A stretch of 32,236 nucleotides of DNA, from the NCBI GenBank assembly GCA_903878265.1, contig CAIRHD010000142.1, forward strand, positions 1 to 32,236. The letters run 5' to 3'. The translations under genes were made by a program, and so were the position numbers. Source of the stretch: an uncultured Bacteroidales bacterium. Lineage in GTDB: Bacteria > Bacteroidota > Bacteroidia > Bacteroidales > UBA4417. Shown piece after piece: positions 1 through 16,896 of the stretch (positions within the stretch are counted from its first letter, which is position 1; each line of letters opens with the position of its first letter). The notes beneath the pieces were generated by a model, which did not search any database, was not told the origin of the DNA, and worked only from the letters and a program-made list of their open reading frames with translations.

Positions 1-1010
1 GCATCGGAACGGTTTTCCTTGATTGCTTTGTAGTTTTTTATACACACTTCGGTTAATAAAGCCAATGTTTGCTGGCAAATCCCCGGTTCATCCGAATCAA
101 ATTTGAGCTTTACAAGGTCGCTACTCGAAATCCGTTGTACATTTACAGATGATATGGCTTTGATAGAATAATGTGGATGGCTGAAATAGAGCAATTTGTA
201 AACATAATTGGTATCGCTGCTCCCCATATAAGCTTCTAAATTTAAAACAGTATGTTCAAAATCTTCGCGGTTGACTGATGCTGGTATTGTAATTGGTAAA
301 TCGCTGGAATTAAGGTCGGAAAAAGAAAATGAGGTTACAGTATCATTTTCTATTTCTGTAGTATCCGAAGATGAAGGGGCTGTATTTTCCGCAAATTGTT
401 TGCCAACTATAAGTTCCTGCCCTACTTCCAGGTTGTTGCCTTCTAATTGGTTCATTTTGGTGATTTCGTCTACTGACAAACCATACTGTTGAGAAATTGA
501 AAATAGAGTTTCCTTTACTTTTACAGTGTGCGTTTGGTTTAGGGAGTTTTTATTTGGGGGCGAAAGATTTGTTTTTTGTTTGGCAGCAGGATGGCTTTTA
601 TCCTGCTTGCTTTCATTGTTGATATGCCTGTTAACTACCAACGACTTTACATAATTTGGAGTTGTTTTCTGCAATTTTATATACGATTCCTTCGAAATAT
701 AACGGGCATCGTACTGAGGCAGCATCAAGTGCTGAGCCAACAAGCGGATAGCAACTTCTTGCTGTGTTTCACGCGATTTTATAACATTTATCAGGTTGTC
801 GAACGCGGTGTTGGTAGCAAAAAAGCTCAATGTCTTATCCATTTCCACGCTTGATCCTGATGCAATCCCCGTATAAAGTGTTGTTTCGGAAGAATAAGTA
901 TAGGTAGGTTTTCGGGTCATGTAGGCAACCAAAGTTGCAAGCACCAAAGGCGTAAACAAGAGGATTACAAGGTTTTTCTTAACCAGCTTAATGATTTCAA
1001 TTACCTTCAT
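1..1010 (-). CDS. Wzz/GumC-like polysaccharide chain-length protein with embedded LysM domain (3' end outside window)
   Basis: The first 336 codons are visible; the gene runs off the left edge. I translated it from the minus strand starting at the ATG at 1010. Residues about 12-31 form a hydrophobic segment after a short basic start, as in Wzz-type polysaccharide co-polymerases of the inner membrane. Residues about 160-203 read as a LysM domain (HTVKVKETLFSISQQYG, then an NQLEGNNLEVGQELIVGK core), flanked by polar linkers rich in Ser, Asn and Lys. From about 250 the sequence returns to a Wzz/GumC-like fold, with a segment of the type SSSDLVKLKFDSDEPGICQQ. The family sets polymer length or links polymerisation to export; LysM binds peptidoglycan or chitin-like glycans. 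The start overlaps the end of the TolC-like gene by 14 nt, suggesting coupled translation. Any C-terminal second membrane segment or kinase domain is not visible. Confidence 0.85.
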   Translation of the reverse strand, partial: MKVIEIIKLVKKNLVILLFTPLVLATLVAYMTRKPTYTYSSETTLYTGIASGSSVEMDKTLSFFATNTAFDNLINVIKSRETQQEVAIRLLAQHLMLPQYDARYISKESYIKLQKTTPNYVKSLVVNRHINNESKQDKSHPAAKQKTNLSPPNKNSLNQTHTVKVKETLFSISQQYGLSVDEITKMNQLEGNNLEVGQELIVGKQFAENTAPSSSDTTEIENDTVTSFSFSDLNSSDLPITIPASVNREDFEHTVLNLEAYMGSSDTNYVYKLLYFSHPHYSIKAISSVNVQRISSSDLVKLKFDSDEPGICQQTLALLTEVCIKNYKAIKENRSD

Positions 1011-1773
1011 CTGTCGTAGATATTTGGTTAGTTAATTGAAAATCAATACCTACAATTTCCTCCAACACCAAATATGCGGTAAGAAAATCAGTCCGTGAAA
1101 CTTCATAATCAACCGCGGTGCGCGATGCTGCTTCCGAAAGGCGGGTGTACTCGGTTAATGGTATTACGCCATTTAAAAATTCCGTTTCCACTAATTGCAT
1201 ACTGATTTTGGAAGTTTCAAAAAATTTGGATTTTATCTTCAGCAGCCGTTGTTTTAACACCAATTCGTTGTATTGGCGTATCACCAATTGCCGTACTTCG
1301 TCGCGCTGCACTTCGGCCATTTTTTGAGCCTGTTCAACTTCAATGCCAGCCATTTTAAGTTGGTTTTTCCTGTTGACCAATTCATAAACAGGAAATTTGA
1401 AATAAACGGCACCGCCCCATTTCGTTTCAGCACGGGTAGTGGCAACAGCAGGAGGCTGAACACCACCGACATCATTTTGCGAATAATTATAGAAATTGCC
1501 ATACCGCACATCGGCAGAAAAGCCGATATTCCGCATCCATTCTATCTGGTTGGATTTCAGTTTGCAATTGTTCACTATTATCTGCAAATCCCTGAACTGT
1601 ATGTATGGGTTGTTGGCTATGGCCGAATCCATTAGCGAAGCCAAGGATGGAAGGATGCTGCCGATATCGTCCTTTAACGGATCGAAGCGCTTTTGCTGTT
1701 GTGGATGCAACCGTCCGGCAAAACCAAGTTGGAAAAGAATCAGAAGGGAAAGAATGGCTATACTTCTCGTCAT
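997..1773 (-). CDS. Short TolC-like outer-membrane protein of the polysaccharide export locus
   Basis: The 258-residue product begins with a clear signal peptide (residues 1 to about 19, MTRSIAILSLLILFQLGFA). The rest is mostly long amphipathic helix of the outer-membrane efflux (OEP/TolC) type, with segments such as LASLMDSAIANNPYIQFRDL near the front and VEQAQKMAEVQRDEVRQLV in the middle. TolC proteins are usually about 420-500 residues and contain two OEP repeats; this one has room for about one. It lies 26 nt after the sugar transferase and overlaps the Wzz-like start by 14 nt, so it is part of that operon and probably helps form the trans-envelope path for the polymer. Assignment to the TolC family is good; the exact role is inferred from context. 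Confidence 0.75.
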   Translation of the reverse strand: MTRSIAILSLLILFQLGFAGRLHPQQQKRFDPLKDDIGSILPSLASLMDSAIANNPYIQFRDLQIIVNNCKLKSNQIEWMRNIGFSADVRYGNFYNYSQNDVGGVQPPAVATTRAETKWGGAVYFKFPVYELVNRKNQLKMAGIEVEQAQKMAEVQRDEVRQLVIRQYNELVLKQRLLKIKSKFFETSKISMQLVETEFLNGVIPLTEYTRLSEAASRTAVDYEVSRTDFLTAYLVLEEIVGIDFQLTNQISTTDEGN

Positions 1774-1799
1774 ACCTGCAAAATTACAGAATTTTTGAG

Positions 1800-3068
1800 T
1801 TATACCGTATCTTTCTGGAAAAGTGCTTTAAAAGTGCGGAGTACCAGCCAGAAGTCGTACCAGAAGGAATAAGCATCCCCGATAAAGTGATCTGAATAAT
1901 CAATATCATACTTTTTGCGTTCTTCTTCCGACATATCGCCACCTTTCCCTCGGAGTTCAACCTGCCAGAGACCAGTTATTCCAGCAGGGGCTAAAAACCT
2001 CTTTGGGTTGTCCAGCCTTTCTTTTTTCTCTACTTCGTTGGCCTTATCTAAGCTATTGCTGTTACTACGGATTGGCACCCCACCGATAGTTAGTGTCTCA
2101 GCTTCATAAACTGGCAATGGGCGGTTTCCAACAACAGACATATCCCCTTTTATCACATTAATTAATTGTGGAAGTTCATCGATACTGGTATTGCGTATAA
2201 TCTTCCCGACTTTGGTAATTCGCGGGTCATTTACAATTTTTATAAATGCAGACTTCGATTTTTTAATTTCATTGTTTTGAACCGAAAACCAATATTCACA
2301 AATTGTATATGTGCCAATATGCATCAGGGGCGAACATGTTTTACCATCACTCAATTTCTCGCATTTAGGACAAGGTTTATCAAAGGCTATTTCAGTTTTT
2401 GTAGAAACAGTTGTATATTGATTTTTATCTTTCGCCAGTTTTGCCAAATCGGCATCGGCATTGATACGCATAGAACGGAGTTTATAAAAATCGAAGGTGG
2501 TTTTTCCAACCCGTTTTGATGAGTAGTAAACTTTCCCTTTAAAACCCGATTCCACCCAAATTGCTAAACAAACAATTGCTAAAAGCGGTGATAGGAAGAG
2601 TAAAGCTCCAATAGCTAATACGAGATCAAAAATGCGTTTCGTTTTGGGCATCTTGTAATCAGTACGGATTTCAGTCTCAACCGGAATTATTTTCGACCGG
2701 TAGTCTTTTAAGTACTCAATACGCCCAACTATTTGTTCTGCCGATGGTTGTGGCAGGATATAAAAATCGTCCACATGTTTCTCAAAGGCTTCTTTAATCA
2801 GTTCTTCTTTAAACTCAAAAGCCAAAAGTATAAAGCAAACCGGGTTTAATGATGGGAGATTTCTGACCCACTCAAACATCTTTGCCCATTCCCCTCCCGA
2901 AAAAATAGCCTCACAGAGAATTGCATCAGGTATTGAATCTGATTTAAGACGATTCTCGGCAGCAAGAATATTGCCCTTTACTTCTAATGATATTTTATTG
3001 TTGGCCTGCAATGCAGCAACCGTTTCGGCAGAATTGCCAATATATACTATTTTAAGTGCGTTTTCCAT
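1800..3068 (-). CDS. Polyprenyl-phosphate sugar-phosphate transferase with N-terminal pseudo-receiver and four-Cys insert (copy 1)
   Basis: This 422-residue initiating transferase (PF02397-type, WcaJ/PglC superfamily) moves a sugar phosphate from a UDP-sugar to undecaprenyl phosphate at the inner membrane. Family landmarks: a hydrophobic re-entrant or membrane segment at about 146-172 after KRIFD, KLRSM (196-200), DPRITKVGK (281-289), the catalytic DELPQ (297-301) with GDMSVVGNRPL (308-318), and PAGITGLWQV (361-370). Residues 1 to about 125 resemble a receiver domain, but the phospho-Asp position reads Glu (PDAILCE, E53), the acidic pair is absent (IVYIGNS) and the conserved Lys is lost (FYILPQP). 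Between KLRSM and DPR lies an insert with Cys 233, 236, 245 and 257 (C-x2-C-x8-C-x11-C), resembling a metal-binding ribbon. It sits 64 nt after a stand-alone receiver gene. A close paralogue lies at 3843-5024. Confidence 0.9.
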   Translation of the reverse strand: MENALKIVYIGNSAETVAALQANNKISLEVKGNILAAENRLKSDSIPDAILCEAIFSGGEWAKMFEWVRNLPSLNPVCFILLAFEFKEELIKEAFEKHVDDFYILPQPSAEQIVGRIEYLKDYRSKIIPVETEIRTDYKMPKTKRIFDLVLAIGALLFLSPLLAIVCLAIWVESGFKGKVYYSSKRVGKTTFDFYKLRSMRINADADLAKLAKDKNQYTTVSTKTEIAFDKPCPKCEKLSDGKTCSPLMHIGTYTICEYWFSVQNNEIKKSKSAFIKIVNDPRITKVGKIIRNTSIDELPQLINVIKGDMSVVGNRPLPVYEAETLTIGGVPIRSNSNSLDKANEVEKKERLDNPKRFLAPAGITGLWQVELRGKGGDMSEEERKKYDIDYSDHFIGDAYSFWYDFWLVLRTFKALFQKDTV

Positions 3069-3132
3069 AATTTATTTGGTTAACGATTTGTTGTAGAAAA
3101 AAACAGGGGTAATCGGTTTGAGAGCTATCAAT

Positions 3133-3525
3133 TTACCATTTTTTTGCAAAATGTATTGGTTCCAAGTTCTTTTTTAAAATCTCATCCAGTTCTTCTGGAT
3201 TGAACGGTTTGGTTAAAAAGTCCTGTGCGCCATTTTTATAACAATCTATGCGGGCCTTAGTACTTTCAACGCCCGATAGCATAACAACGGGAGTATGTTT
3301 GGTGTAACCACGCTCACGTAACTTTTTAACAAACTCGAACCCATCCATTTTAGGCATTTGAATGTCGCAAATAATCAAATCGGGAGGCAGATTGGTTTCA
3401 AGCCAGTCTAGTGCTTCCAAACCATCACTTTTGGTAAAAACGTCGTATTTTTTTGAAAGGAAACTTTCTAAAAGAAGCCGGATACTTCTTTCATCGTCTA
3501 TGGCCAGAATTCTACTTTTACTCAT
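3133..3525 (-). CDS. Stand-alone receiver-domain response regulator (copy 1)
   Basis: The 130 residues form a single CheY-type receiver with no output domain. All key residues are present: acidic pair D10/D11, phospho-acceptor D54 in PDLIICDIQMPKMDG, Ser84 at the switch position and Lys106 in FLTKPFNPEEL. A short tail after the domain, EPIHFAKKW, resembles NPIHYNIKW in the second copy, so the tail may be a docking element specific to this pair. The gene is first in the minus-strand unit that continues into transferase copy 1, the TolC-like protein and the Wzz-like protein. A perfect Bacteroidota -7 element lies 61 nt before the start. Regulation by protein contact, possibly with the adjacent transferase, is inferred from the lack of a DNA-binding domain and from gene order. 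Confidence 0.93.
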   Translation of the reverse strand: MSKSRILAIDDERSIRLLLESFLSKKYDVFTKSDGLEALDWLETNLPPDLIICDIQMPKMDGFEFVKKLRERGYTKHTPVVMLSGVESTKARIDCYKNGAQDFLTKPFNPEELDEILKKNLEPIHFAKKW

Positions 3526-3842
3526 TGATTTGATATTTAGAGTTATTGTATTTTGTTATTTATTTTTTCTCTTAGGTTCAGGGTCGCAAAAGTAATCTGT
3601 CATATAACTTATTGCTTTTCTAAAGCCCATTGCTCAACATTCGTATCACAAAACTTGTTTTCGCTTTACAAATTTTAGCATTTTGCATATCTTAATTTGA
3701 TTACTATGGAACATTTTAGAAATAAAATTTGATTAGCATTTTTAATTTTCTGTTGGTTTTCAACAGTTTGTCAAGTAATTCCATCCAACATTGTAAGGAG
3801 TAAATATACAACATTCTGCAATATGGTTCTGATAATTTTATT
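3526..3842. other. Intergenic spacer between the two receiver-transferase cassettes
   Basis: This 317-nt AT-rich spacer lies after transferase copy 2 and before receiver copy 1, both on the minus strand. It contains a candidate promoter at 3587-3594. A small perfect inverted repeat, CTGTTG (3750-3755) and CAACAG (3761-3766), has no strong T-run and is at best a weak terminator for copy 2. I see no gene. Confidence 0.6.
3587..3594 (-). promoter_or_regulatory. Candidate Bacteroidota -7 promoter element (TACTTTTG) for the receiver-1 operon
   Basis: On the minus strand the sequence reads TACTTTTGC, a perfect match to TAnnTTTG, about 61 nt before the receiver start. I did not find a TTTG -33 box at 19-22 nt spacing, so this is a half-match. 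Confidence 0.45.
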
Positions 3843-5024
3843 TCACTTTACTGAAAAACGCCTTAAAAGCAGCCGGAAATCGTACCAAAAGGAGTAGTTG
3901 TTGCCTATAAAGTGGTCAGAATAAGTAACATCAATCATGTTGCGATCAGCTTCCGTAACATCTCCTTGGCGAAATAAAACCTGATAAAGCCCGGTCATAC
4001 CAGCCGGGGCAAGAAAACGCCTAGACATTTCACCCATCGAAAGCTGTTCTGCTTTGTAGATTGGCAGTGGTAAGTTGCCGACAATAGACATATCGCCTTT
4101 TAACACATTGATTAATTGCGGTAGCCTGTCGATTCCTGTTTGGCGGATAATCTTGCCTACTTTGGTAACACGCGGATCATTGGTGTTTTTAAGTAAGTCA
4201 AGCCTTGCATTAGATGCTTCCTTGGTTTGTACCGAGTACCAATACTCACAAATTCTGTTTGTTCCTACAAATATCAGAGGAGAACAGAACGTGTTGGCCC
4301 GCAACTGACTGCATTTTGGGCAGGTTCTTTCAAAGTCAATTTGCAAATTCTCCGATCTGTATTTATTCCCGTTACTAGGTGCTGAAGGCCGGGCTGATTG
4401 GGAATCGGCATCTTGGCGCATAGAACGGAATTTGAGATAATCAAAGATTCGACTACCAGTGCCAATACGTCTTGTAACAAACAAAACGCTTCCCTTCGAT
4501 TCGAGCTTTATGGCCACTGCAATAAGCAGCAACAAAGGTGAAAGTGCCATCAAAGCTACCAAAGCTACAATTATATCAAAAATCCGTTTCGATCCCGGCA
4601 TTGAGTAGGAAATTTCGCGGCTTAGCTCCGGCTCAATAGGTTTTAGCTTCTTACGGTATTCCCGTAAAAACAGGATCCTGTTAATCAAGCCGTCAAGTGG
4701 AGGCAACGGAATCAGATAAAAATCATCAATACGTTTGCCTATTGCTTCTTTATACAATTCTTCCTTAAATACAGTATCCAAAAGCAAAAAGCAAATGCTG
4801 TCCAAATCACGCCTCTTCCGCACCCATTCGTGCATGGCAAGTCCATCGCCTCCCGATATTGTCATTTCACAAAGTATGGCATCAGGCATTTGGCCTGATT
4901 TAAGGTAGTTTTCGGCAGCAAGCACATTGCCCTGCACGGTAAGCGATATCCATTTTTCGGATCGCAAAGCAGTTATTGCTTCGGTCGAATTTCCAATATA
5001 AACTATCCTAAGCGCATTTTCCAT
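3843..5024 (-). CDS. Divergent polyprenyl-phosphate sugar-phosphate transferase paralogue with pseudo-receiver and four-Cys insert (copy 2)
   Basis: The 393-residue paralogue of the 1800-3068 product has the same three-part build. The N-terminal receiver-like domain again has Glu at the phospho-site (PDAILCE, E53). A hydrophobic segment lies at about 148-172, and the insert has Cys 235, 238, 247 and 259 with spacing identical to copy 1. KFRSM, DPRVTKVGK, LPQLINVLKGDMS and PAGMTGLYQV are kept. Two catalytic-site positions differ: DELPQ is DRLPQ (D299, R300), and the Arg of VGxRPL is Leu (VGNLPL). In PglC-type enzymes the Asp-Glu dyad is catalytic, so copy 2 may be inactive, altered or regulatory. 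I chose the ATG at 5024 because it aligns with MENAL of copy 1; an in-frame ATG five codons upstream (5039) is possible. It sits 62 nt after its own receiver gene. Confidence 0.88.
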   Translation of the reverse strand: MENALRIVYIGNSTEAITALRSEKWISLTVQGNVLAAENYLKSGQMPDAILCEMTISGGDGLAMHEWVRKRRDLDSICFLLLDTVFKEELYKEAIGKRIDDFYLIPLPPLDGLINRILFLREYRKKLKPIEPELSREISYSMPGSKRIFDIIVALVALMALSPLLLLIAVAIKLESKGSVLFVTRRIGTGSRIFDYLKFRSMRQDADSQSARPSAPSNGNKYRSENLQIDFERTCPKCSQLRANTFCSPLIFVGTNRICEYWYSVQTKEASNARLDLLKNTNDPRVTKVGKIIRQTGIDRLPQLINVLKGDMSIVGNLPLPIYKAEQLSMGEMSRRFLAPAGMTGLYQVLFRQGDVTEADRNMIDVTYSDHFIGNNYSFWYDFRLLLRRFSVK

Positions 5025-5086
5025 AAACAGTAAGCTCAATCAGGTTCAAGTGTAAACCATTTTAGTTAAGCAAATTAACCAAACAG

Positions 5087-5482
5087 CTACCATTTTATGT
5101 TGTAATGGATTGGGTTTAAGTTCTTTTTTATTATTTCGTGCAATTCCTCGGGATTGAATGGCTTTACCAGAAAATCCTGTGCACCAAGTTTGTAACATTT
5201 CACCCGCTCCTTGCTGTTTTCAACACCTGAAAGCATCACAACGGGAGTATTTTTGGTATGGACACGTTCGCGTACCTTTTGCACAAAGGTATATCCATCC
5301 ATATTTGGCATCTGCACATCACAAATAATAAGGTCGGGCAAATTGGTTTCAAGCTCTTCCAGGGCTTTTACCCCATCCTCCATTGAAACAACTTCATAAC
5401 CAATCTTTTCACTACCAAGAAAACTTGACAAAAGGAGTCGGATGCTTTTTTCATCATCTATAATCAGGATTTTTGGCTTCAT
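5087..5482 (-). CDS. Stand-alone receiver-domain response regulator (copy 2)
   Basis: This 131-residue single-domain receiver is closely similar to the product of 3133-3525. Visible landmarks are D9/D10, phospho-acceptor D55 in PDLIICDVQMPNMDG, Ser85 and Lys107 in FLVKPFNPEEL, so it should be phosphorylatable. It ends in NPIHYNIKW, matching the tail of copy 1. It is followed after 62 nt by transferase copy 2, repeating the receiver-then-transferase order. The upstream region is a 585-nt divergent spacer shared with the plus-strand biosynthetic genes. There is no DNA-binding domain, so output is likely protein-protein, perhaps on the adjacent transferase (inference). Confidence 0.93.
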   Translation of the reverse strand: MKPKILIIDDEKSIRLLLSSFLGSEKIGYEVVSMEDGVKALEELETNLPDLIICDVQMPNMDGYTFVQKVRERVHTKNTPVVMLSGVENSKERVKCYKLGAQDFLVKPFNPEELHEIIKKNLNPIHYNIKW

Positions 5483-6067
5483 ATTTTTAGTGTTATTGTT
5501 TTAGGATTATTGTTTAACTCTCTTTTTTAAAATGACCATTGACTTTCGTTAGCCGGAATAATTATTTTAGCTGTAAAGTTCCATTTTTTTCTGAACAACA
5601 CAATTTAATCTGAGATTTTATCTGAAAAAAAATTAGGCCACGACAAGCTGTTTTGGCCCAAGCTCATCTTTTATTCATTTATATTTTCGGAAAATGTAAT
5701 ACAAATCGACCAAAAAATTTCGATATTCTATGATAATCAGCTGATTATCTTCAGGTGAGTGTATCAAAATTTAGAATGATAAATATATGGAATTTTTTGA
5801 AAAAAATAATATTTATTTTGTTGGTTGATTTTAAAATTGAATTAGTTTAGCACCTTACTTTTTTAGTCAAATGCAATAGACTAATGAAAAAAACTCGGGC
5901 ATTTTTTATACCAATTTGCACCTAACAATTCTCCAATAAGCAGATTTCTTGACCCTACGGTTACAGTCGCTGCAAATATAATACAAGCCTTTTTTCAAGC
6001 GGATACAAAGTGTATTACCTTCATAATCGAAATTCTCGGTCAAATTTAACTTTAAAAAAAAACAAGT
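5483..6067. other. Divergent AT-rich regulatory spacer
   Basis: This 585-nt spacer separates the minus-strand receiver-2 gene from the plus-strand asparagine-synthetase-like gene. It is AT-rich, contains no convincing gene, and holds an 18-bp perfect palindrome at 5732-5749. On the minus strand a TATATTTG sequence (5973-5980) matches the -7 consensus, but no -33 box sits at the right distance and it lies about 490 nt from the receiver start. Promoters for both directions should be here, but I cannot fix them. Confidence 0.6.
5732..5749. promoter_or_regulatory. Perfect 18-bp palindrome, candidate operator
   Basis: The sequence is GATAATCAGCTGATTATC, two 9-nt half-sites with no spacer and a perfect dyad. 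Its place in the divergent spacer fits a dimeric regulator site. I saw no second copy in the window. Confidence 0.45.
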
Positions 6068-7936: not shown

Positions 7937-8089
7937 CATGCATTTGATCGCAGAAATAGTTATGATGAAAAGCGGAAAAAAATATTAAAAAAATTGTTTG
8001 CCTATAATTCCTAAAGGAAACATTACTACATTTACAAAAAATATAGATCATTAGAGTTCAAACTTTATACTAACTAAAATCAATAACCA

Positions 8090-9415
8090 ATGAAAGTAGC
8101 AATTGTTGGCAGTGGGTACGTCGGTTTGGTAACCGGTACATGTTTTGCCGAAGTAGGTATTGATGTTGTTTGTGTTGACATCGACAAAAAAAAGATTGAA
8201 AATCTCAAAAACGGGATTATACCAATCTATGAGCCAGGCCTTGAAGAAATGGTTCACCGTAACACAAAAAAAGGAAAATTGCAGTTTACAACCAGCATTG
8301 CCGAAGCCCTCGAAGATTGCGAGGTTCTGTTCAGTGCTGTGGGCACTCCTCCGGGCGAAGATGGCAGTGCCGATTTGCAGTATGTATTGAGTGTTGCCCG
8401 CGATTGCGGAAAACACATGAAAGATTATGTCCTAGTAGTTACCAAGAGCACTGTACCTGTCGGCACAGCGCTGAAAGTAAAAAATGCCATTCAAGGTGAA
8501 CTCGACAAACGTGGTGTGAATATCCCATTCGATGTAGCTTCAAACCCTGAATTCCTGAAAGAAGGTGCTGCCATCAGCGATTTCCTGAAACCAGACCGTA
8601 TTGTAGTTGGGCTTGATTCGTCAAGGGCCGAAGATTTGATGAAAAGCCTTTACAAACCTTTCACCCTGAACGGGCATCCGGTAATTTTCATGGATATTGT
8701 TTCGGCCGAAATGACCAAGTATGCCGCTAACTCCATGCTTGCCACCAAAATCAGTTTTATGAACGATATTGCCAACCTTTGCGAAATAGTGGGCGCCGAC
8801 ATAAATATGGTTCGTAAGGGAATTGGTTCCGATTCGCGTATCGGCAACAAATTCATTTACCCAGGTATTGGTTATGGCGGTTCGTGTTTCCCAAAAGACG
8901 TAAAAGCGCTGATTCATACTGCCGAAGATTTTGGGTATGAACTCAAAGTGCTGAAAGCGGTGGAAGCGGTAAACCACGACCAAAAATCGGTACTATATAA
9001 TAAGGTAATGAAATTCTTTAATGGCGAGATTAAAGGTAAGACTATGGCTATTTGGGGATTATCATTCAAACCTCAAACCGATGATATGCGCGAAGCACCT
9101 GCACTTGTTATTATCCAGAAACTGCTTGATGCCGGGGCAAAAGTAAAAGTTTACGATCCAGTGGCCATGCCGGAAGCCAAGCACACGTTGGGCGATACCG
9201 TTGTTTATGCCGACGATCAATATGATGCTTTAATCGATGCAGATTGCCTGCTTTTGGTTACAGAATGGTCGGAATTTAAGTTCCCGAATTTCAAGATTAT
9301 GCGCAAACTGTTGACCCAGCCGGTGGTTTTCGATGGGCGTAATATCTACGAAGCCTCCGAAATGAAACGCAACAATTTTACCTATTTCTGTATAGGTATC
9401 GATACAACAAAATAA
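8090..9415 (+). CDS. ugd: UDP-glucose 6-dehydrogenase
   Basis: The 441-residue enzyme oxidises UDP-glucose to UDP-glucuronate with two NAD+ in the cytoplasm. It has the N-terminal Rossmann motif GSGYVG (7-12), the VGTPP motif (84-88), TKSTVPVG (118-125), a SNPEFLKEG loop (151-159), and the catalytic cysteine C266 in GGSCFPKD. Length is normal for the family. It supplies the substrate for the next gene, the UDP-glucuronate decarboxylase, 76 nt downstream. A TACATTTA sequence at 8027-8034 resembles a -7 element, but the nearest TTTG (7997-8000) is too far away for a confident promoter. GDP-mannose dehydrogenase has a similar fold but is less likely next to a decarboxylase. Confidence 0.94.
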
Positions 9416-9420
9416 TTTTT

Positions 9421-9470
9421 AACCCTAAAAGTAAAGCCTATCTGCCTCAAGTATGGCATTTAGGTTTTAT
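9421..9470 (+). terminator. Weak terminator-like or attenuator hairpin after ugd
   Basis: AACCCTAAA (9421-9429) can pair with TTTAGGTT (9459-9466) with one bulged C, and inner GCC/GGC pairing is possible. A T-rich run follows. It could partly separate ugd from the next gene, though the two probably share a transcript. Confidence 0.3.
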
Positions 9471-9491
9471 TTTAATTTTAAAACAACGATT

Positions 9492-10448
9492 ATGCTAAAG
9501 AAAAAGGTTTTGGTTACCGGTGGGGCAGGGTTTGTAGGGTCGCAATTGTGCGAACGCCTTCTAAACGATGGCCACGAAGTAGTTTGTCTCGACAACTATT
9601 TTACCGGACAGAAAGCAAACATTGTCCATTTGATCGACAATCCATTCTTTGAATTGATACGCCACGATGTAACCATGCCATTTTTTATCGAAGTGGACGA
9701 AATTTACAACCTGGCATGCCCAGCTTCGCCAATCCATTACCAGTACAATGCGATTAAAACGATGAAAACATCGGTAATGGGAGCAGTAAACATGCTTGGG
9801 CTGGCAAAGCGCATAAAGGCAAAAATCCTTCAGGCTTCAACCAGCGAAGTTTATGGCGATCCGCAGGTTCACCCCCAGGTTGAAACGTATTGGGGACATG
9901 TAAACCCAATTGGCGAACGTTCGTGTTATGACGAAGGCAAGCGCGCAGCCGAAACTTTGTTTGTCAATTACCACAAACAAAACAACGTGAGGATTAAAAT
10001 CATTCGTATTTTTAATACGTATGGGCCTAATATGCACCCTCACGATGGTAGGGTAGTCTCCAATTTCATCATGCAAGCCCTTAAAAACGAAGATATTACC
10101 ATTTATGGCGATGGACAGCAAACACGCAGTTTTCAATATGTTGACGATTTGCTGGAAGGCATGGTGCGCATGATGGCTTCGCGCGATGATTTTACCGGGC
10201 CTGTAAATATTGGCAACCCAAACGAATTTACGATTCTGGAACTCGCAAACAAGGTAATTGAACTTACCAATGCAAAATCAAAAATAAAGAGGATGCCACT
10301 TCCTTCGGACGATCCAATGCAGCGCCAACCCAATATTGATTTAGCAAAAAAGGAATTGGGTTGGTCGCCAAAAATTCAGCTCGAAGAGGGTCTAACTAAG
10401 ACCATTGCCTATTTCGACGGCTTGCTTAAAATTAATCCTACGCTATGA
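9492..10448 (+). CDS. uxs: UDP-glucuronate decarboxylase (UDP-xylose synthase), extended SDR family
   Basis: The 318-residue NAD-dependent short-chain dehydrogenase converts UDP-glucuronate to UDP-xylose. Landmarks: TGGAGFVG (9-16), LDNYFTGQK after the second strand, the [13 protein letters not shown] segment typical of [12 protein letters not shown] (116-124), and the catalytic YDEGK (146-150). Similar proteins are often mislabelled as dTDP-glucose dehydratases, but the ACPASPxHYQ and [11 protein letters not shown] blocks favour UXS. I chose the ATG at 9492 ([11 protein letters not shown]) because it puts the nucleotide-binding strand at the usual distance; an in-frame ATG at 9453 would add 13 unconserved residues. 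It directly follows ugd, its substrate supplier, and overlaps the next gene by 4 nt (ATGA). Confidence 0.9.
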
Positions 10449-11302
10449 AAATACTGATTACAGGTTCGAACGGGCAACTTGGGAACGAAATCAGGGAACT
10501 TGCAAGCTCTTATCCGCACCACCATTTCCAATATACCGATGTAGGTGAACTGGATATTGCAGATGCAGTAAAAGTAAGCCAGTATTTTTCCTTACACAGT
10601 CCGGATGCGATTATAAATTGTGCCGCATATACAGCAGTTGATAAAGCTGAAACCGACAAGGATTTAGCTTACCTTGTTAACGCCGTGGCTCCTGGCAACC
10701 TTGCTTTTGCAGCCGCCCAGTCAGGGGCTTTTATGGTTCACATTTCGACCGATTATGTGTATAGTGGTAAAAATTACTGTCCATATAGCGAAACTGACCA
10801 ACTGAACCCTGTTTCGGTATATGCCAAAAGCAAAGCCGCTGGCGAAGATGCGGTGAAAAAATCGGGTGCCAACGCATTGATAATCCGTACATCGTGGCTT
10901 TATTCGGCTTTTGGAAACAATTTCATAAAAACTATGATGAAATATGGTGCCGAACGAGGCAAGCTCAATGTGGTTTTCGACCAAATAGGCTCACCGACTT
11001 ATGCACACGATTTAGCCAAAACCTTACTCGATATTTTACCTAAGGCAATGGATGCCGATGGTGCGAAAATTTACCATTACTCCAACGAGGGCGTGGCCAG
11101 TTGGTACGATTTTGCCAAAGCCATTATCGAAATTTCCGGAATTGATTGCATCATAAACCCAATCCCGACCAAGGATTATCCATTGCCCGCCGAAAGGCCG
11201 TTTTACAGCGTATTGGACAAAGCGAAAATCAAAAAGGATTTTGCAATTGAAATTCCGTATTGGAGGGATAGCGTAAAGCTATGCATACAAAGGCTGAAAT
11301 AA
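10445..11302 (+). CDS. rfbD: RfbD-like dTDP-4-dehydrorhamnose reductase
   Basis: The 285-residue SDR protein has the length and motifs of RfbD: GSNGQLG (7-13), [11 protein letters not shown] (59-69), STDYVYSG (101-108) with the catalytic pair in YAKSK (126-130), and [12 protein letters not shown]. RfbD makes dTDP-L-rhamnose in the final step of that pathway using NAD(P)H. The start overlaps the uxs stop (ATGA), so the two are translationally coupled. None of the other rhamnose genes (rfbA, rfbB, rfbC) is in this window, so they must be elsewhere, or this enzyme acts on a different 4-keto sugar. The family call is firm; the substrate is inferred. Confidence 0.85.
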
Positions 11303-11335
11303 CCTTGGGAAATTCGCTCTGAAAAAATTTGCCAA

Positions 11336-11710
11336 ATGATAAACTGGGAAGAGTTTAATGCCGTTTACGGGGTTTATGGTAATGTCCTTGTTATCGAAAT
11401 CATAAATTCAATTTTAGAAGGAGATAAAAATGAAAACCCTCCAGTCCTTTCCTGCGAAGAGCGAATGATAAAGTTAAAAAAGAATGTTGATCAAAAGGAT
11501 TTCCATCAGATTTTATTAATTGCCCACTGGATGAAAGGAAATTTTGATATTTTTTATGACTGGGAGTCGAGTCAAATTGCCCGCAATTTACGTGAAATGG
11601 CTAGGAATGAAACCGATACGGGGCTTGAAGCAGAATTTGAAAAACTTAAATTAGTTGCCGACAAACTTGTAATCGAACTCCGGGAATACCGTAAAACTCT
11701 CACTGCCTGA
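11336..11710 (+). CDS. Stand-alone HPt (histidine phosphotransfer) protein, copy 1
   Basis: The 124-residue helical protein shows the HPt signature: the likely phospho-histidine H64 in AHWMKGN, matching the family pattern (A/H)HxxKGxxxx. Helices fill the rest, including LEAEFEKLKLVADKLVIELREY near the end. It opens with MINWEEFNAVYGVYG, almost the same as the second HPt downstream (MINWEEFNEIYLQYG), so the two are paralogues. HPt proteins pass phosphate between receivers or from hybrid kinases to receivers in the cytoplasm. It lies 33 nt after rfbD, so it is probably in the sugar-nucleotide operon. Its likely partners are the two free receivers at 3133-5482 and the receiver of the GH130 fusion (inference). 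The residues after KG are less typical than in copy 2. Confidence 0.75.
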   Translation: MINWEEFNAVYGVYGNVLVIEIINSILEGDKNENPPVLSCEERMIKLKKNVDQKDFHQILLIAHWMKGNFDIFYDWESSQIARNLREMARNETDTGLEAEFEKLKLVADKLVIELREYRKTLTA

Positions 11711-11849
11711 TAAGCCAAACTTGGCTTACATCCTTGTAAACATAGAATAGATGCTGTTTTTATAATGGCATTTGTTGCTCTTGTCTATTAATGTCAACAA
11801 TCATTTTATACAAGGGACTTTTATCCATGATGGGAATTGGAGATTTGAG

Positions 11850-11857
11850 TACTTTTG
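11850..11857 (+). promoter_or_regulatory. Candidate -7 promoter element (TACTTTTG) for HPt copy 2
   Basis: TACTTTTGC is a perfect TAnnTTTG match 65 nt before the HPt-2 start, within a 212-nt spacer. I found no TTTG box at the usual 19-22 nt spacing, so it is only a half-match. Confidence 0.4.
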
Positions 11858-11922
11858 CTTAACACCAGAAAAACTCAGGCACTCAAGCTGCCATAAAAGA
11901 AGAACAAAACAAGTAATAAAAC

Positions 11923-12264
11923 ATGATAAACTGGGAAGAATTCAATGAAATATACCTTCAATATGGAAGTGACATTGTCCTAACAATAATTGAAGAATTA
12001 GAAATTCAATATAAAGAGATTCCGCCAATTCTTAAGAAGAGCATTCTTGAAAAAGATTTTGCAGGAATAAAGTTCTATGCTCATAAAATAAAAGGTAGTG
12101 TTGCAAATTTCTACGATCCAGAACCTGTAAATTATGCGGGGATCTTAGAGAAAATGGGAAATGATGAAATCGGCGAGGGCCTATTAGATGTTTATGATAA
12201 GTTCATTGTTGCAACCGATAATCTTATGATTCAGCTACTTAAGTATCGCGAGGAACAATCCTGA
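11923..12264 (+). CDS. Stand-alone HPt (histidine phosphotransfer) protein, copy 2
   Basis: The 113-residue protein carries a clearer HPt motif than its neighbour: H54 in YAHKIKGSVANFYDP, close to the family pattern HxxKGSxxN. The N-terminal MINWEEFNEIYLQYG block is shared with copy 1, so a duplication is likely. The sequence is helical, with no membrane segment and no kinase or receiver domain. It has its own possible promoter element in the 212-nt gap from copy 1 and is followed by a 538-nt spacer. It should be a cytoplasmic phosphate carrier. The kinase that feeds it is not in the window. Confidence 0.82.
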   Translation: MINWEEFNEIYLQYGSDIVLTIIEELEIQYKEIPPILKKSILEKDFAGIKFYAHKIKGSVANFYDPEPVNYAGILEKMGNDEIGEGLLDVYDKFIVATDNLMIQLLKYREEQS

Positions 12265-12634
12265 AAAGAAAGTAATACTACCTTTTGTAAAACAGAATTA
12301 GCAAATAATTCTATTTTAAATGATCACCTTCAAACTGATGTTTTAAAAGTTAGCATAGCATATGGCTTTTCGTCTCAATTCTTTGAAATAGAAGCCCTAA
12401 CTCATTGAATAACTGGATGAACAATCCACAATTAGGGACCAGTAATAGTGGATTGCTAAAATTGATAAAAAAATCTGGTTTAATAACACCAAATTCCCCG
12501 TCCGGCAGACGTTTTTTTACTTAATCCACCTTTTCCTGCCGATCCTGCCCTGCATTACTGTCTGTAAGTGGTTAACATGCAACGTTTCTATGTTAAAGAC
12601 ACATGCTCCTCCTCTAATCTACTTTTAGCTAACG

Positions 12635-12659
12635 ATCCTATCATACCGATAGGATTTTT
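12635..12659 (+). terminator. Hairpin with T-run, possible terminator or operator
   Basis: ATCCTATC (12635-12642) and GATAGGAT (12648-12655) form a perfect 8-bp stem with a 5-nt loop, followed by TTTT. The stem is AT-rich and lies about 370 nt after HPt-2 and 55 nt before the -33 box of the next gene, so an operator role is equally possible. Confidence 0.4.
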
Positions 12660-12709
12660 GAAAATCATTTCCCTACTTTCGCTTTGTTTTACAGAATTCA
12701 CACGATATT

Positions 12710-12740
12710 TTTGGTTTCGTGATTTGAGGGATTATTTTTG
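12710..12740 (+). promoter_or_regulatory. Bacteroidota housekeeping promoter for the GT4 gene
   Basis: A TTTG -33 box (12710-12713), a 19-nt spacer and TATTTTTG (12733-12740) match TTTG-N19-TAnnTTTG completely. Transcription would start near 12747, giving a leader of about 55 nt before the ATG at 12803. Confidence 0.65.
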
Positions 12741-12802
12741 AGCCAAATACAAAACCATCTATCAATCAACTAAATAGTAATAGCTTACTAAAATTTGGTA
12801 GC

Positions 12803-15016
12803 ATGAAAATTATTTGTTTGGGCAACTACCCTCCAAGGCAATGTGGTATTGCTACTTTTACCGAAAATTTGGTAAATGCCATATTAAATGCTTCCAACCT
12901 CCATTCCCATCCCATTGAAATAGAGGTAATTGCCATGAACGACGGCAACAAATCGTATCCCTATCCCGAAATTGTGAAGCATGTAATCCGCGATAGGGTT
13001 ATGGGTGATTACATCCAAATGGCTGAGCATATCAACAACTCAGGAGCCGAGATCTTACTGTTGCAGCACGAATACGGTATTTTTGGTGGCGAAAGTGGGA
13101 TTTTGTTGCTGGCATTGCTGCGCCGTATAAAAATTCCGGTGGTTACCACTTTGCATACGGTTTTGCAAAAGCCAAGTTTCCATCAACTTGAAGTGATGAA
13201 AAAAATTACTGCCTATTCGTCGCGAATTGTTGTGATGAACGGGCTGGCAATCAATTTTTTAGCAAATATTTATAATGTCCCTTTCGAAAAGATAATCCGT
13301 ATCGAGCATGGAGTTCCCGACTTTGAAATCTATAAAGATAGCTTGTTGCCCAAACCGAAAATCTGGGAAAACCGAAAAGTGATGCTCACTTTTGGTTTGA
13401 TTGGCCGTAGCAAAGGCATTGAAATTGCAATAAGGGCTTTGCCTGCCATTGTCAACAAACATCCCGAATTGCTATATGTTGTGCTTGGCAAAACGCATCC
13501 AACTATTGTAAACTATGCAGGCGAAGAGTATCGCGAATTTTTGTATAAGTTAGTAAAGCAATTAGAATTGGAAGCAAATGTGCAATTTATAAACGAATAT
13601 GTGAGCGAATTGGAGTTGATGTCGCACCTGAAAAATGCGGATATTTACGTTACGCCTTACCTTAATAAAGCCCAGATAACAAGCGGCACTTTAAGCTATG
13701 CGGTTAGTGGAGGCTGCGCCGTAATTTCAACCCCTTATTGGCATGCTGAAGAATTGCTTGACAATGGGCGTGGGCATCTTTTCGATTTTGGGAACCACAA
13801 ACAGCTTTCGGGAATCGTAAACCAATTGCTTGATAACCCCGAATTGTTGGAAAAGCAGCAGCAAAAAGCATATTCGTACGGAAAAAGCATTTCGTGGCCT
13901 ATAATCGGCAAACATTACCTAAATTTATTCGGCGATACTGCTTTGCAAAATGGTTTTGCAAACAAACATAAACAGGTAGGTTCGCCAATCAGTTATCCCG
14001 ATTTTGATATTTCACACCTTAAACGCCTTACCGACGATACAGGTTTGTTGCAACATGCCCGAACCTGTGTGCCGTATTACAAAGCAGGGTACAGCCTCGA
14101 CGACAATGCGCGTGCCATTGTGGTTTGCCTTGCAGCCTGGAACCAATCGAAGGAGCAGGTTTACCTCGATCTTCTGGACAACTATCTGGCCTACACATCC
14201 TATATGCAGCAAAAGGATGGTAGTTTTAAAAACTACATGACTTTCGACCGGAATGTACTCAACGATACTTCGGACGATGCATTTGGAAGGGTATTTTGGG
14301 CACTTGGCTATCTAATTCAATATGTACCTTTAAATTCCGTTTTTCAATTAGGCCATGAATTGTTTGAGCTTTCGTTGCCACAAATCGACAATTTGAGCTA
14401 TGCACGGGGTTACGCCAACTGTATATTCGGTTTGTACCATTATGTGAAACGCTTTCCTGACCAGGAAAAATTTCTGAAATTATTGCAAGTACTTTCGGAT
14501 CAATTGTGCGAAAAATTCGCCTTGCATAAGCATGAAAACTGGAGTTGGTTCGAAGATAGATTGACGTACGACAACGGTTTGCTGCCTGCTGCTTTGTTCA
14601 AGGCTTTTGAGATTTTGGGAAATGAAAAATATTTGGATGTTGCTAACGAAAGTATGGCTTTTTTGGAATCGAAATGCTTTAAGGAAGATTGGCTCTCGCT
14701 GATTGGAAACCAAAAATGGCTGCATATGGATCAGGATTATAAAATGTTCGCCCAACAGCCCGTGGATGCCATGGCTATGGTGTTGCTTTACGAAAGTGCA
14801 TGGGAAGCAACTGGTAAGCAGGAATATATTGATAAGCTCCTGCTTTCGTTTGATTGGTTTTTCGGAAAAAACGACCTCGACATTACCTTATTCGATTCGG
14901 AAACCAAAGGATGCAACGATGGAATCGAAGATTTCAACATCAACCGCAACCAAGGCGCCGAAAGCAATATTGCGTATCTTTTGTCATGGCTTGTTGCCAA
15001 ACCATTCTTCCGCTAA
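12803..15016 (+). CDS. GT4-type glycosyltransferase fused to a C-terminal helical toroid-like domain
   Basis: In this 737-residue protein, residues 1 to about 370 look like a GT-B glycosyltransferase of family GT4: an N-terminal PPRQCGIATFTENL loop, LLQHEYGIFGG, an HGVPDFE segment, and FGLIGRSKGIEIAIRALP opening the second Rossmann half. The usual EX7E motif is not visible at the expected place (TSGTLSYAVSGGCAVIS), so the donor site is unusual. Residues about 395-737 form a separate all-helical region with repeated W, Y and D motifs (AGYSLDDNARAI, DTSDDAFGRVFWALGY, TYDNGLLPAALFKAFEI), like an alpha/alpha toroid of glycoside hydrolases or epimerases. There is no signal peptide, so it is cytoplasmic. 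It converges with a 4-nt overlap on the GH130-receiver gene, a likely functional partner. The glycan it acts on is unknown; beta-mannan-type is one guess. Confidence 0.8.
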   Translation: MKIICLGNYPPRQCGIATFTENLVNAILNASNLHSHPIEIEVIAMNDGNKSYPYPEIVKHVIRDRVMGDYIQMAEHINNSGAEILLLQHEYGIFGGESGILLLALLRRIKIPVVTTLHTVLQKPSFHQLEVMKKITAYSSRIVVMNGLAINFLANIYNVPFEKIIRIEHGVPDFEIYKDSLLPKPKIWENRKVMLTFGLIGRSKGIEIAIRALPAIVNKHPELLYVVLGKTHPTIVNYAGEEYREFLYKLVKQLELEANVQFINEYVSELELMSHLKNADIYVTPYLNKAQITSGTLSYAVSGGCAVISTPYWHAEELLDNGRGHLFDFGNHKQLSGIVNQLLDNPELLEKQQQKAYSYGKSISWPIIGKHYLNLFGDTALQNGFANKHKQVGSPISYPDFDISHLKRLTDDTGLLQHARTCVPYYKAGYSLDDNARAIVVCLAAWNQSKEQVYLDLLDNYLAYTSYMQQKDGSFKNYMTFDRNVLNDTSDDAFGRVFWALGYLIQYVPLNSVFQLGHELFELSLPQIDNLSYARGYANCIFGLYHYVKRFPDQEKFLKLLQVLSDQLCEKFALHKHENWSWFEDRLTYDNGLLPAALFKAFEILGNEKYLDVANESMAFLESKCFKEDWLSLIGNQKWLHMDQDYKMFAQQPVDAMAMVLLYESAWEATGKQEYIDKLLLSFDWFFGKNDLDITLFDSETKGCNDGIEDFNINRNQGAESNIAYLLSWLVAKPFFR

Positions 15017-16896
15017 CGTTGCTGGGCCAATATTTTGGCGATGCGGATGAGCAGCAATTTCGGGTCAACAGGCTTTTTGATGTATTCGGATGCTCCCATT
15101 TTCAAGCCTCTTTCCTCGTGTTCGGAACTTGTATGCCCCGACAGGAAAATCAGCGGGATATTGATATTGTGCTGTTTCATATATTCGAGCATCTGATAGC
15201 CATCCAGGTTGGGCATGGCAATATCCGAAAGTACCAAATCGTATTTCTCCTTTGCTATTTGCATCAGTGCAATAACCCCATCAGATGCAATATCCACATC
15301 ATACCCAGCCGATTTCAAGATGCTGCCGATGATTTTTTGGTTAATAACCTCATCATCAACAACGAGTATCCTTATATTGCTGCTATCAAGATTTGGGCGG
15401 CCACGCTTTATATCGGAAGGGAGTAGGTTAGTGAGCAATTCCTTCAACGACAGAGTTGCATAAGTTGACGATGTGTCCGACATGGCGTAAGGAATAACAA
15501 GTTCATCGTTGTTGATGATCGACCCACACGAATAAACCACATTAGGCACATAACCTTCGCGTTCTTCCTCATTTGGTAAAATCAAAGGCTCATTTAACTG
15601 CCCGATAACTTTGGTAGGGTCGTCTAAATCGAGTAGGATTGCGCCAATCACATACTTGCGCATCGGTCCCACGCCGTGCGTTATCACCAACCAGCCAAAT
15701 TCGGTTTCGATTGGCGAGCCACAGTTGCCAACTTGGATAAATTCCCAAGGAAATTTAGGCATTTGGAGTTTTACCGCATCGTGCCATAGGTTGATGGTAT
15801 CAGAAAACATAACGTAGTTGTTTATGCCATCGAGGCGCGAAAGCATGGCATATTTGCCTTTGATTTTTCGTGGAAACAAAGCCATCCCTTTATTTTGGGC
15901 GTTTTCGCCATGTATGGGCATTACCTCGAACTGGTAGAAACTTCGTGTTGTTATCATCATTGGCATGATGCTTACGCCATTGTATGCGGTATAAGTGGCA
16001 TAATAGCGTTCCAAACCGTCGTCTTCGGTAAATTTCACAAACCGCGCATCTTCGATACCGTTGCTTTCGGCTGCTGAAATGGGGAATATGACACGATCGG
16101 AAATACTTGTGTCTAACGAAAATGATATTTTATAGTGCGAATCGCCTAACCAACTGATTATTTGCAACATTTTGCGCTGCTGCTCATCGGGTTGCAACTC
16201 CCTTTTTGTTTCGTCAATGGCCCTGTATAGTTCATTATAATCGAATTCGGCCCTTAGTTTTTGCAAAACGAGGGTCAAAACGGCATTTTCTCCCAGCAAT
16301 TCGCCAACGCCATACACTTCGCAAAGTTTTTTATAAAAAATATCTTTTTTATAAGTGAAATTATACACATTTTCGGCTTCGTCGATAAGCCGTCCTGTTG
16401 GGATCATTTCCAGGTTGTTGTTGGCATCGAGTATCCCACCCCTGAAAGCGATTGACGAAATATGCCCTTCGCCGGTTGCCCTAAAACTTATTATAACCCG
16501 TTTCTGCCCTTCCTGTAGGCCCGATTGGTCGGGATCTTCAACCATGGACGGGTTGAAAAATGCCGCCGATTCTATTGAATATTCCGAGGAAAAAAAAGCG
16601 CCAATGAGAAGTTTTTTGTACACTGACAAGGTGGTAAGGTCTTCGACTTTGCCGTTCATTATATCGCGGGTACGGTCGAAGTGTTTTTGGAATAAGCGGG
16701 AAATATTGCGGTGCCGTGCCGAAAAGTCGCGCAAAACCTGGTTCAAACTAAGCATGGCAGCTTCTTCCGGCATTTCAACAACCTTACGGATGATGGTTTG
16801 CACCCGGGATTCAGGACCAGGGAAGAAGAATCTCACAATTACCCTTTTGGGGTCGCTATAAAAGCGTATCGGCTTGCGATTTATCGAAGTGCTCAT
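15013..16896 (-). CDS. GH130-type glycoside hydrolase/phosphorylase fused to a C-terminal receiver domain
   Basis: The 627-residue protein has two parts. Residues about 100-490 match GH130 (beta-mannoside phosphorylases and related enzymes): the catalytic Asp is probably D283 in GIEDARF, followed by YYATYTAYNG, ALFPRKIKGKYAMLSR and GNCGSPIETEFGWLVITHGVG. The N-terminal RFYSDPKRVIVRFF extension is seen in larger GH130 members. Residues about 507-627 form a complete CheY-like receiver: D514/D515, D558 in DLVLSDIAMPNLDG, Ser586 and K608. There is no signal peptide, so it is cytoplasmic and accessible to an HPt. Phosphorylation could therefore control a carbohydrate-active enzyme directly (inference). 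GH130 joined to a receiver is a combination I do not recognise as standard. The gene is convergent with GT4 and preceded by a 470-nt spacer. Confidence 0.88.
   Translation of the reverse strand: MSTSINRKPIRFYSDPKRVIVRFFFPGPESRVQTIIRKVVEMPEEAAMLSLNQVLRDFSARHRNISRLFQKHFDRTRDIMNGKVEDLTTLSVYKKLLIGAFFSSEYSIESAAFFNPSMVEDPDQSGLQEGQKRVIISFRATGEGHISSIAFRGGILDANNNLEMIPTGRLIDEAENVYNFTYKKDIFYKKLCEVYGVGELLGENAVLTLVLQKLRAEFDYNELYRAIDETKRELQPDEQQRKMLQIISWLGDSHYKISFSLDTSISDRVIFPISAAESNGIEDARFVKFTEDDGLERYYATYTAYNGVSIMPMMITTRSFYQFEVMPIHGENAQNKGMALFPRKIKGKYAMLSRLDGINNYVMFSDTINLWHDAVKLQMPKFPWEFIQVGNCGSPIETEFGWLVITHGVGPMRKYVIGAILLDLDDPTKVIGQLNEPLILPNEEEREGYVPNVVYSCGSIINNDELVIPYAMSDTSSTYATLSLKELLTNLLPSDIKRGRPNLDSSNIRILVVDDEVINQKIIGSILKSAGYDVDIASDGVIALMQIAKEKYDLVLSDIAMPNLDGYQMLEYMKQHNINIPLIFLSGHTSSEHEERGLKMGASEYIKKPVDPKLLLIRIAKILAQQR

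Follow-up and report, generated by a model that had tools for sequence, protein, structure and literature searches.

The window analyzed here (32,236 nucleotides) is the whole of contig C142 (CAIRHD010000142.1) in a 5.78-Mb draft assembly of 629 contigs (GCA_903878265.1; genome G000) from an uncultured Bacteroidales bacterium. It encodes two single-domain response regulators (SDRRs; RR1 and RR2), each located upstream of a protein of the initiating monotopic phosphoglycosyl transferase (monoPGT) type (TR1 and TR2; TR in general) that carries an N-terminal pseudo-receiver (N-domain). Here we describe these pairs, their occurrence in other Bacteroidota, and the possibility that the SDRRs control the start of polysaccharide synthesis at the protein level. 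The four genes are as follows:

5087..5482, minus strand: RR2, an SDRR (PF00072, 3e-32), 62 bp upstream of TR2
3843..5024, minus strand: TR2, a paralogous pseudo-receiver transferase with a broken catalytic dyad (PF02397, 2.2e-47)
3133..3525, minus strand: RR1, an SDRR (PF00072, 1.8e-29), 64 bp upstream of TR1
1800..3068, minus strand: TR1, a monoPGT with an N-terminal pseudo-receiver at about residues 1-126 (PF02397, 4.4e-47)

TR1 was found to keep the DX12P motif and the Asp-Glu dyad of the monoPGT superfamily (D148, P161, D297, and E298) and is probably an active initiator. Its AlphaFold2 (AF2) model (pLDDT 85.5) has a (beta-alpha)5 domain of five alternating strands and helices at residues 5-126, followed by a catalytic part that starts at residue 142, and no transmembrane bundle. 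When this model was searched with Foldseek, the catalytic part matched PglC and WbaP and the N-terminal part matched PhoB receivers, including 2jb9, a PhoB D10A/D53E mutant that is "constitutively active" according to its title. By Pfam, the N-domain of TR1 was undetected and that of TR2 was barely detected (E 0.087); when a profile of 86 N-domains was compared with the SDRR profile by hhalign, the two aligned with a probability of 99.6 over 131 columns. In the TR1 N-domain, Glu replaces the phospho-Asp, and the acidic pair, the Thr, and the Lys are all lost, while the phosphorylation residues of RR1 are intact (D10, D11, D54, S84, and K106). The same division was evident in the larger sets, with all five key phosphorylation residues present in 99 of 106 SDRRs; none of 101 N-domains kept four or five of them, and 4 kept three. 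As judged from profile comparison and modeling, the TR N-domains have a receiver fold without the phosphorylation chemistry. The genes and domains listed in the initial annotation of the window were recovered in full through open reading frames (ORFs), Pfam, the hhalign, AF2, and Foldseek analyses of the N-domain, and the histidine phosphotransfer (HPt) motifs described below. As a separate observation, the transferase domain is interrupted midway by a four-cysteine insertion (CPxC...C...C) in 14 of 16 aligned sequences, TR1 and TR2 among them; it is absent from G017 and G038 and looks like a metal-binding knob.

The pairing of an SDRR with a pseudo-receiver TR was found to recur widely in Bacteroidota. 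Among 13 genomes including G000, an SDRR was encoded directly upstream, on the same strand, of all 16 pseudo-receiver TRs. A scan of named genomes yielded at least 592 loci; at the best 80 of these, a same-strand SDRR was detected in 76 cases, with a median gap of 15 bp (90th percentile 66, maximum 620), in genomes of Bacteroides fragilis S82, B. stercorirosoris, Prevotella, Pedobacter, Mucilaginibacter, Flavobacterium, Algibacter, Rufibacter, and Marivirga. The four misses were L097, whose gene contains a stretch of 100 unknown bases; L156, which has no N-domain; L165; and L170, an unrelated actinobacterial transferase. Two genome draws were also searched, one from the phylum (296 genomes, threshold E <= 1e-80, matches in 23 genomes) and one from the order (295 genomes, matches in 53, with an N-domain match in 51 of these). 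In the phylum draw an SDRR accompanied 14/14 N-domain TRs outside the window vs 4/10 TRs without the N-domain (Fisher p 0.0016), and in the order draw 47/50 N-domain matches outside the window vs 0/11 without, where two of the misses (L227 and L228) lie at contig ends and one (L285) is genuine. This comparison between TRs with and without the N-domain is the one least dependent on query bias. Among the 11 loci of the order draw that lack the N-domain, two have little upstream room (L275, 114 bp; L280, 236 bp), and L302 was scored as N-domain-bearing despite a broken frame (its match runs from profile position 11) and has an SDRR. No SDRR was found beside any of 17 more distant Bac_transf loci, of which 9 have only about 390-490 bp upstream, or room for little beyond one SDRR. 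The sets overlap slightly: the L099 sequence is that of L075 from the 13-genome set, five order-draw loci come from genomes of that set, G278 is in both draws, and other close species were kept. An SDRR beside any given gene should be rare by chance, as only 11 of the 98 receiver matches in G000 lie in open frames of less than 200 codons. The co-occurrence in other Bacteroidota that the initial annotation had offered as its own check was found for the receivers and pseudo-receiver TRs, which are neighbors in many genomes; N-domain TRs are scattered over the phylum and are not universal.

Residue conservation was examined to the level of single positions in 123 of 128 pairs, the other five (L107, L163, L166, L168, and L218) having been dropped for lack of the motif used for cutting the N-domain. 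In PhoB numbering, 97 of the N-domains have Gly at position 9 and 75 have Glu at position 53, position 10 being mixed; Lys105 is kept in only 13. Asp101 is present in 105 and Arg115 in 96, with Lys in place of the latter in a further 13; these are the two most conserved charged columns of the N-domain, ranking top and third among all columns when two gap-filled columns are left out. Asp101 is also found in 110 of the 123 SDRRs. In KdpE, Asp97-Arg111 connects the two molecules of a receiver dimer, and changes to the corresponding residues of PhoB and PhoP have been reported to yield monomers (PMC4773095); by our own reading, based on a constant offset of four, the KdpE residues would equal PhoB Asp101/Arg115. 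The center of the OmpR/PhoB dimer interface is further described as containing two charged residues that are absolutely conserved in the E. coli members and crucial for PhoB dimerization (PMC2586830). The N-domains resemble the OmpR/PhoB alpha4-beta5-alpha5 dimers in that most keep Asp101/Arg115 and in that the frequent Glu at position 53 is the D53E substitution of 2jb9. They differ from 2jb9 in that the mostly-Gly column is position 9, the position of D10A being mixed, and from OmpR/PhoB dimers generally in that one of the two partners would be an enzyme-borne pseudo-receiver, with an output other than DNA binding. The kept Asp101/Arg115, the salt-bridge residues of the alpha4-beta5-alpha5 face, favors, without proving, a receiver/pseudo-receiver heterodimer.

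Two candidate HPt proteins are encoded in the window:

11336..11710, plus strand: HPT1, a stand-alone HPt-like protein (Hpt, 17.4 bits) with an AHWMKG motif, in which the His is kept here
11923..12264, plus strand: HPT2, a stand-alone HPt protein (Hpt, 16.3 bits) with an AHKIKG motif, the better conserved of the two

Both score below the Pfam gathering cut-off (24.6 bits) but have AHxxKG. The AF2 model of HPT2 (pLDDT 92.4) is a confident HPt-like bundle with P. aeruginosa HptB as the top Foldseek match (7c1i, TM 0.89, E 2.2e-3; none reached E 0.001), so that HPT2 has the helical fold and phospho-His motif of an HPt, though with a Pfam score below gathering. The HPT1 orthologue of G011 lacks the His, and no HPT1 orthologue was found among the G010 ORFs; pairing of the HPts is not upheld by these relatives and was therefore dropped as a defining feature. 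Hybrid kinases with two C-terminal receivers were found in or beside the EPS (exopolysaccharide) cluster of five genomes, as a CHASE4-GAF hybrid in the same cluster in G010 and G011, and as a PAS/GAF or GAF hybrid near the pair in G002, G013, and G015. The initial annotation had placed the kinase elsewhere; as these five relatives show, it need not be. In G000 the orthologue is on another contig (C39:18981-22115) and is 81% identical to the G010 kinase. On one side the C39 kinase is flanked by ORFs in the G011 order and of near-equal length, in a comparison of lengths only. A direct join between C39 and the window was considered and is unsupported, as C39 lacks the wzy-like ORF of G011 and those that follow it.

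Kinases adjoining the SDRR-TR pair in six other loci were analyzed by Pfam and found to be HisKA hybrid kinases, five of which have the order HK-REC-HPt, with a C-terminal Hpt match above the cut-off in L205, L206, L208, and L222 and below it in L213 (E 1.5e-4). The L205 and L213 kinases go with N-domain transferases. By a custom HMM, the kinases of L207, L214, and eight of the best 80 of the at least 592 named loci may likewise end in an HPt. In L112, and in L271 and L289, which come from one genus, the SDRR is immediately preceded by a free HPt-like ORF. An HPt that is fused in one lineage and neighboring in another would be the expected trace of a working HPt-to-SDRR step. Relatives thus have the gene set of a multistep phosphorelay, and in several lineages the coding regions for kinase, receiver, HPt, and SDRR adjoin one another; what differs from known HK-REC-HPt relays is the proposed end point, a membrane enzyme at the start of polysaccharide synthesis. 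A kinase or HPt neighbor was recognized in only part of the loci.

The closest precedent is in Myxococcus xanthus, where the phosphorylated SDRR EpsW (EpsW~P) stimulates the monoPGT EpsZ post-translationally, a conclusion based on proximity labeling and heterologous activity (PMC12802240). The proposal of the initial annotation that initiation is set at the protein level thus has an experimental SDRR precedent in Myxococcus. The likeness lies in (i) an SDRR encoded in an EPS locus with the initiating monoPGT, as at 76/80, 14/14, and 47/50 of the loci here; and (ii) an SDRR with the key residues for phosphorylation, 5/5 in 99/106. As described in the passages of PMC12802240 used here, EpsZ is a large monoPGT with a bundle of four transmembrane helices and a cytoplasmic domain of unknown function (DUF) that lacks the beta-hairpin, whereas the TR1 model has a receiver-fold pseudo-domain instead and no bundle; EpsW receives its phosphate from the Dif chemosensory kinase, whereas hybrid kinases and HPts are the neighbors here; and no dead paralogue is mentioned there for EpsZ, whereas TR2 is a probable one here. 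The principle is therefore shared with EpsW/EpsZ, and the transferase architecture, pseudo-receiver, relay, and broken-dyad paralogue differ. Receiver domains on small monoPGTs, as in the TRs, were noted in the sequence survey of O'Toole et al. (2021, PNAS), as related in PMC12802240. In the open-licence literature, nothing turned up on Bacteroidota SDRRs with EPS or capsule or on pseudo-receiver glycosyltransferases.

Overall, we lean, with some reserve, toward control of the first committed step of EPS synthesis at the protein level by an SDRR relay. The SDRR would receive phosphate that a hybrid kinase hands on through the kinase's own receiver and then an HPt. Once phosphorylated, the SDRR (SDRR~P) would use its alpha4-beta5-alpha5 face to dock on the pseudo-receiver in the manner of OmpR/PhoB dimers, and docking would change transferase activity, most likely by turning on the transfer of sugar-1-phosphate to undecaprenyl phosphate. 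The polymer may then be switched by direct SDRR-transferase contact rather than by gene expression. Several observations weigh against this reading. The loci were collected with alignments of pseudo-receiver TRs, so the sample is biased to that architecture, and an N-domain TR was found at E <= 1e-80 in just 13 of the 296 phylum-draw genomes, G000 counted. When both draws are pooled, 4 of the 21 clade members that lack the N-domain still have an SDRR, and the N-domain TRs of L165 and L285 have upstream room yet no SDRR. Arg115 is found in only 75 of 123 SDRRs, with Ile at this position (counted from the Lys) in RR1 and RR2 of the window, and Asp101 and Arg115 may be conserved for structural roles instead. 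In G000 the kinase is on a separate contig, and the sixth of the kinases analyzed by Pfam (L219) has three receivers and no HPt. The transferases that accompany the HK-REC-HPt kinases of L206, L208, and L222 have no N-domain, indicating that a relay-fed SDRR can serve a transferase without a docking domain; because this is the case for three of the five confirmed HK-REC-HPt neighbors, our confidence was lowered. That the effect would be activation rather than inhibition is a guess taken from EpsW/EpsZ.

Some of these observations would be explained if the SDRR acted on another step (the chain-length protein or exporter, or an assembly complex) or on the catalytic domain, with the pseudo-receiver serving for dimerization or localization in place of the cytoplasmic DUF of large monoPGTs. 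We regard this as rather unlikely, though it is consistent with the outer-membrane efflux-type protein (OEP) and chain-length determinant (PCP) genes that follow the TR in 12 relatives and many further loci, with the 4/10 phylum-draw TRs that have an SDRR and no N-domain (three of them with a Pfam-confirmed HK-REC-HPt neighbor), and with the WbaP dimer, which forms through the cytoplasmic domain (PMC12802240). An action on another step fits less well with SDRR presence tracking the N-domain (14/14 vs 4/10; 47/50 vs 0/11) and with L211, L213, and L214, where the SDRR-TR pair is kept without an OEP or PCP recognizable by phmmer with the window proteins. A further alternative is that the SDRR is a phosphate sink or a shared, Spo0F-like relay intermediate that does not target the neighboring transferase. 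SDRRs often serve as relay intermediates, HPts with the His are present, and the sequence matches of RR2 include Spo0F and CheY; counter to this, the kinase or HPt neighbor is limited to part of the loci and the transferase neighbor is near-constant, the latter by construction of the search. We consider this alternative very improbable.

A tandem second pair was found in three genomes, G000, G010, and G011. The dyad that is Asp-Glu elsewhere is DR in the TR2 of G000, DR in that of G010, and EK in that of G011, a break that the initial annotation had missed. Among 92 aligned sequences the dyad is kept in 89, and the three losses are the TR2 copies. This dyad is described as catalytic (PMC12802240, PMC10653937, and PMC10519829). 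The re-entrant DX12P motif is retained in TR2, and so are the further substrate residues examined apart from GNRP, which is GNLP in the window. The dN/dS ratio, which is rough as synonymous sites are near saturation, was 0.14-0.20 for TR2, 0.14-0.15 for TR1, and 0.02-0.04 for RR2 (two calculable pairs). As the TR2 values are like those of TR1, the TR2 gene appears to be maintained, and by the same ratios RR2 is under stronger constraint than either transferase; its identity is 84-93% among the three genomes. TR2 is probably a pseudoenzyme, with a dead regulatory copy as the simplest reading: the RR2-TR2 pair would be maintained to bind or titrate SDRR~P or to partner TR1. Were TR2 instead active with altered chemistry or specificity, the locus would start two different polymers. 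Purifying selection on TR2, its kept DX12P motif, and the dyad Asp retained in G000 and G010 are compatible with such activity, yet every TR2 has R or K in place of the dyad Glu, the Asp is lost as well in G011, and among the 92 aligned sequences loss of this catalytic dyad is confined to TR2; an active TR2 thus seems improbable.

A broader and more tentative proposal, which we rate as possible rather than probable, is a "split receiver" switch of Bacteroidota in which the transferase carries a frozen half of a PhoB-like dimer and SDRR~P supplies the other half. A kinase-HPt relay would in this way control, with no part played by transcription, whether sugar-1-phosphate is loaded onto undecaprenyl phosphate, and one clade would have duplicated the unit, with its second transferase becoming a dead regulatory subunit. 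Peptidoglycan and other glycans draw on the same undecaprenyl phosphate and nucleotide sugars, and the site at which initiation of capsule or EPS is gated matters for this reason. The sole SDRR-monoPGT mechanism that turned up in the open-licence literature is myxobacterial; the related arrangement described here is found in Bacteroides, Prevotella, Pedobacter, Mucilaginibacter, Flavobacterium, and others. The named residues (the phospho-Asp of the SDRR and Asp101/Arg115 of the pseudo-receiver), together with a natural broken-dyad paralogue, make the proposal directly testable.

The remaining genes examined in the window are mainly those of polysaccharide synthesis:

3..1010, minus strand: chain-length determinant (PCP) with LysM, truncated by the contig end (LysM, 2.7e-13; Wzz, 0.0078, below cut-off)
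997..1773, minus strand: OEP, the next gene after TR1 (PF02321, 2.8e-16)
8090-9415, plus strand: UGD (Pfam)
9453-10448, plus strand: UXS-like epimerase (Pfam)
10445-11302, plus strand: RmlD (Pfam)
15013..16896, minus strand: GH130 family protein with a C-terminal receiver (PF04041, 3.3e-27; PF00072, 2.5e-28)

The order SDRR-TR-OEP-PCP was found in 12/12 relatives (L075 runs into the contig end) as well as in many further loci, and a PCP homologue (L067:7771-10494) is 907 aa long, with LysM and a weak AAA_31 match. The UGD, UXS-like, and RmlD block (8090..11302) lies upstream of the HPts, and the same order precedes an HPt in G001, G002, G008, G010, and G011. An asparagine-synthase-like amidotransferase is also encoded in the window (Pfam). 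The window holds part of an EPS locus that is probably of the Wzx/Wzy type, the type being suggested by a Wzy_C (O-antigen ligase) match in the G011 cluster, where the adjoining ORF has no Pfam match.

Receiver residues are in place, by eye, in the GH130 protein, and the same fusion was found in G010, G011, and 8 other genomes of the 295 drawn from the order (L252-L259), again with the residues in place by eye; GH130 without a receiver was commoner in the same list. The initial annotation had made this receiver a member of the relay. At the 8 other fusion loci, neither an HPt nor an SDRR-TR pair was detected by HMM within about 9 kb (less at contig ends), and this part of the proposal was dropped: the fusion is recurrent, but the relay neighborhood is seen only in G000, G010, and G011, three close relatives. 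Taken as a whole, that earlier interpretation is partly supported. The GH130-receiver fusion probably represents a distinct enzyme under phospho-regulation, possibly a mannoside phosphorylase controlled by phosphorylation with its own role outside EPS, and it may share a phosphate supply with the relay. Nothing on receiver-regulated GH130 turned up in the open-licence literature.

Several minor observations were made at the edges of this analysis. The gene beside the GH130 protein (12803-15016) encodes a GT4 glycosyltransferase whose C-terminal half is weakly like GH88 and C5-epimerase models; a GT4 adjoins the fusion in 4/8 of the other loci, and GT4 near GH130 was also seen in L080, L081, L082, and L084. 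Two members of the order have a UvrB gene beside the SDRR-transferase pair (L075:1998-4067 and L076:10739-12763), and DUF4842 proteins lie near the pair in L078 and L206. Finally, the protein encoded at 17367-19730 of the window, which we take to be DUF349-like, has an acidic N-terminal tandem repeat (AVEEPIAIEE).

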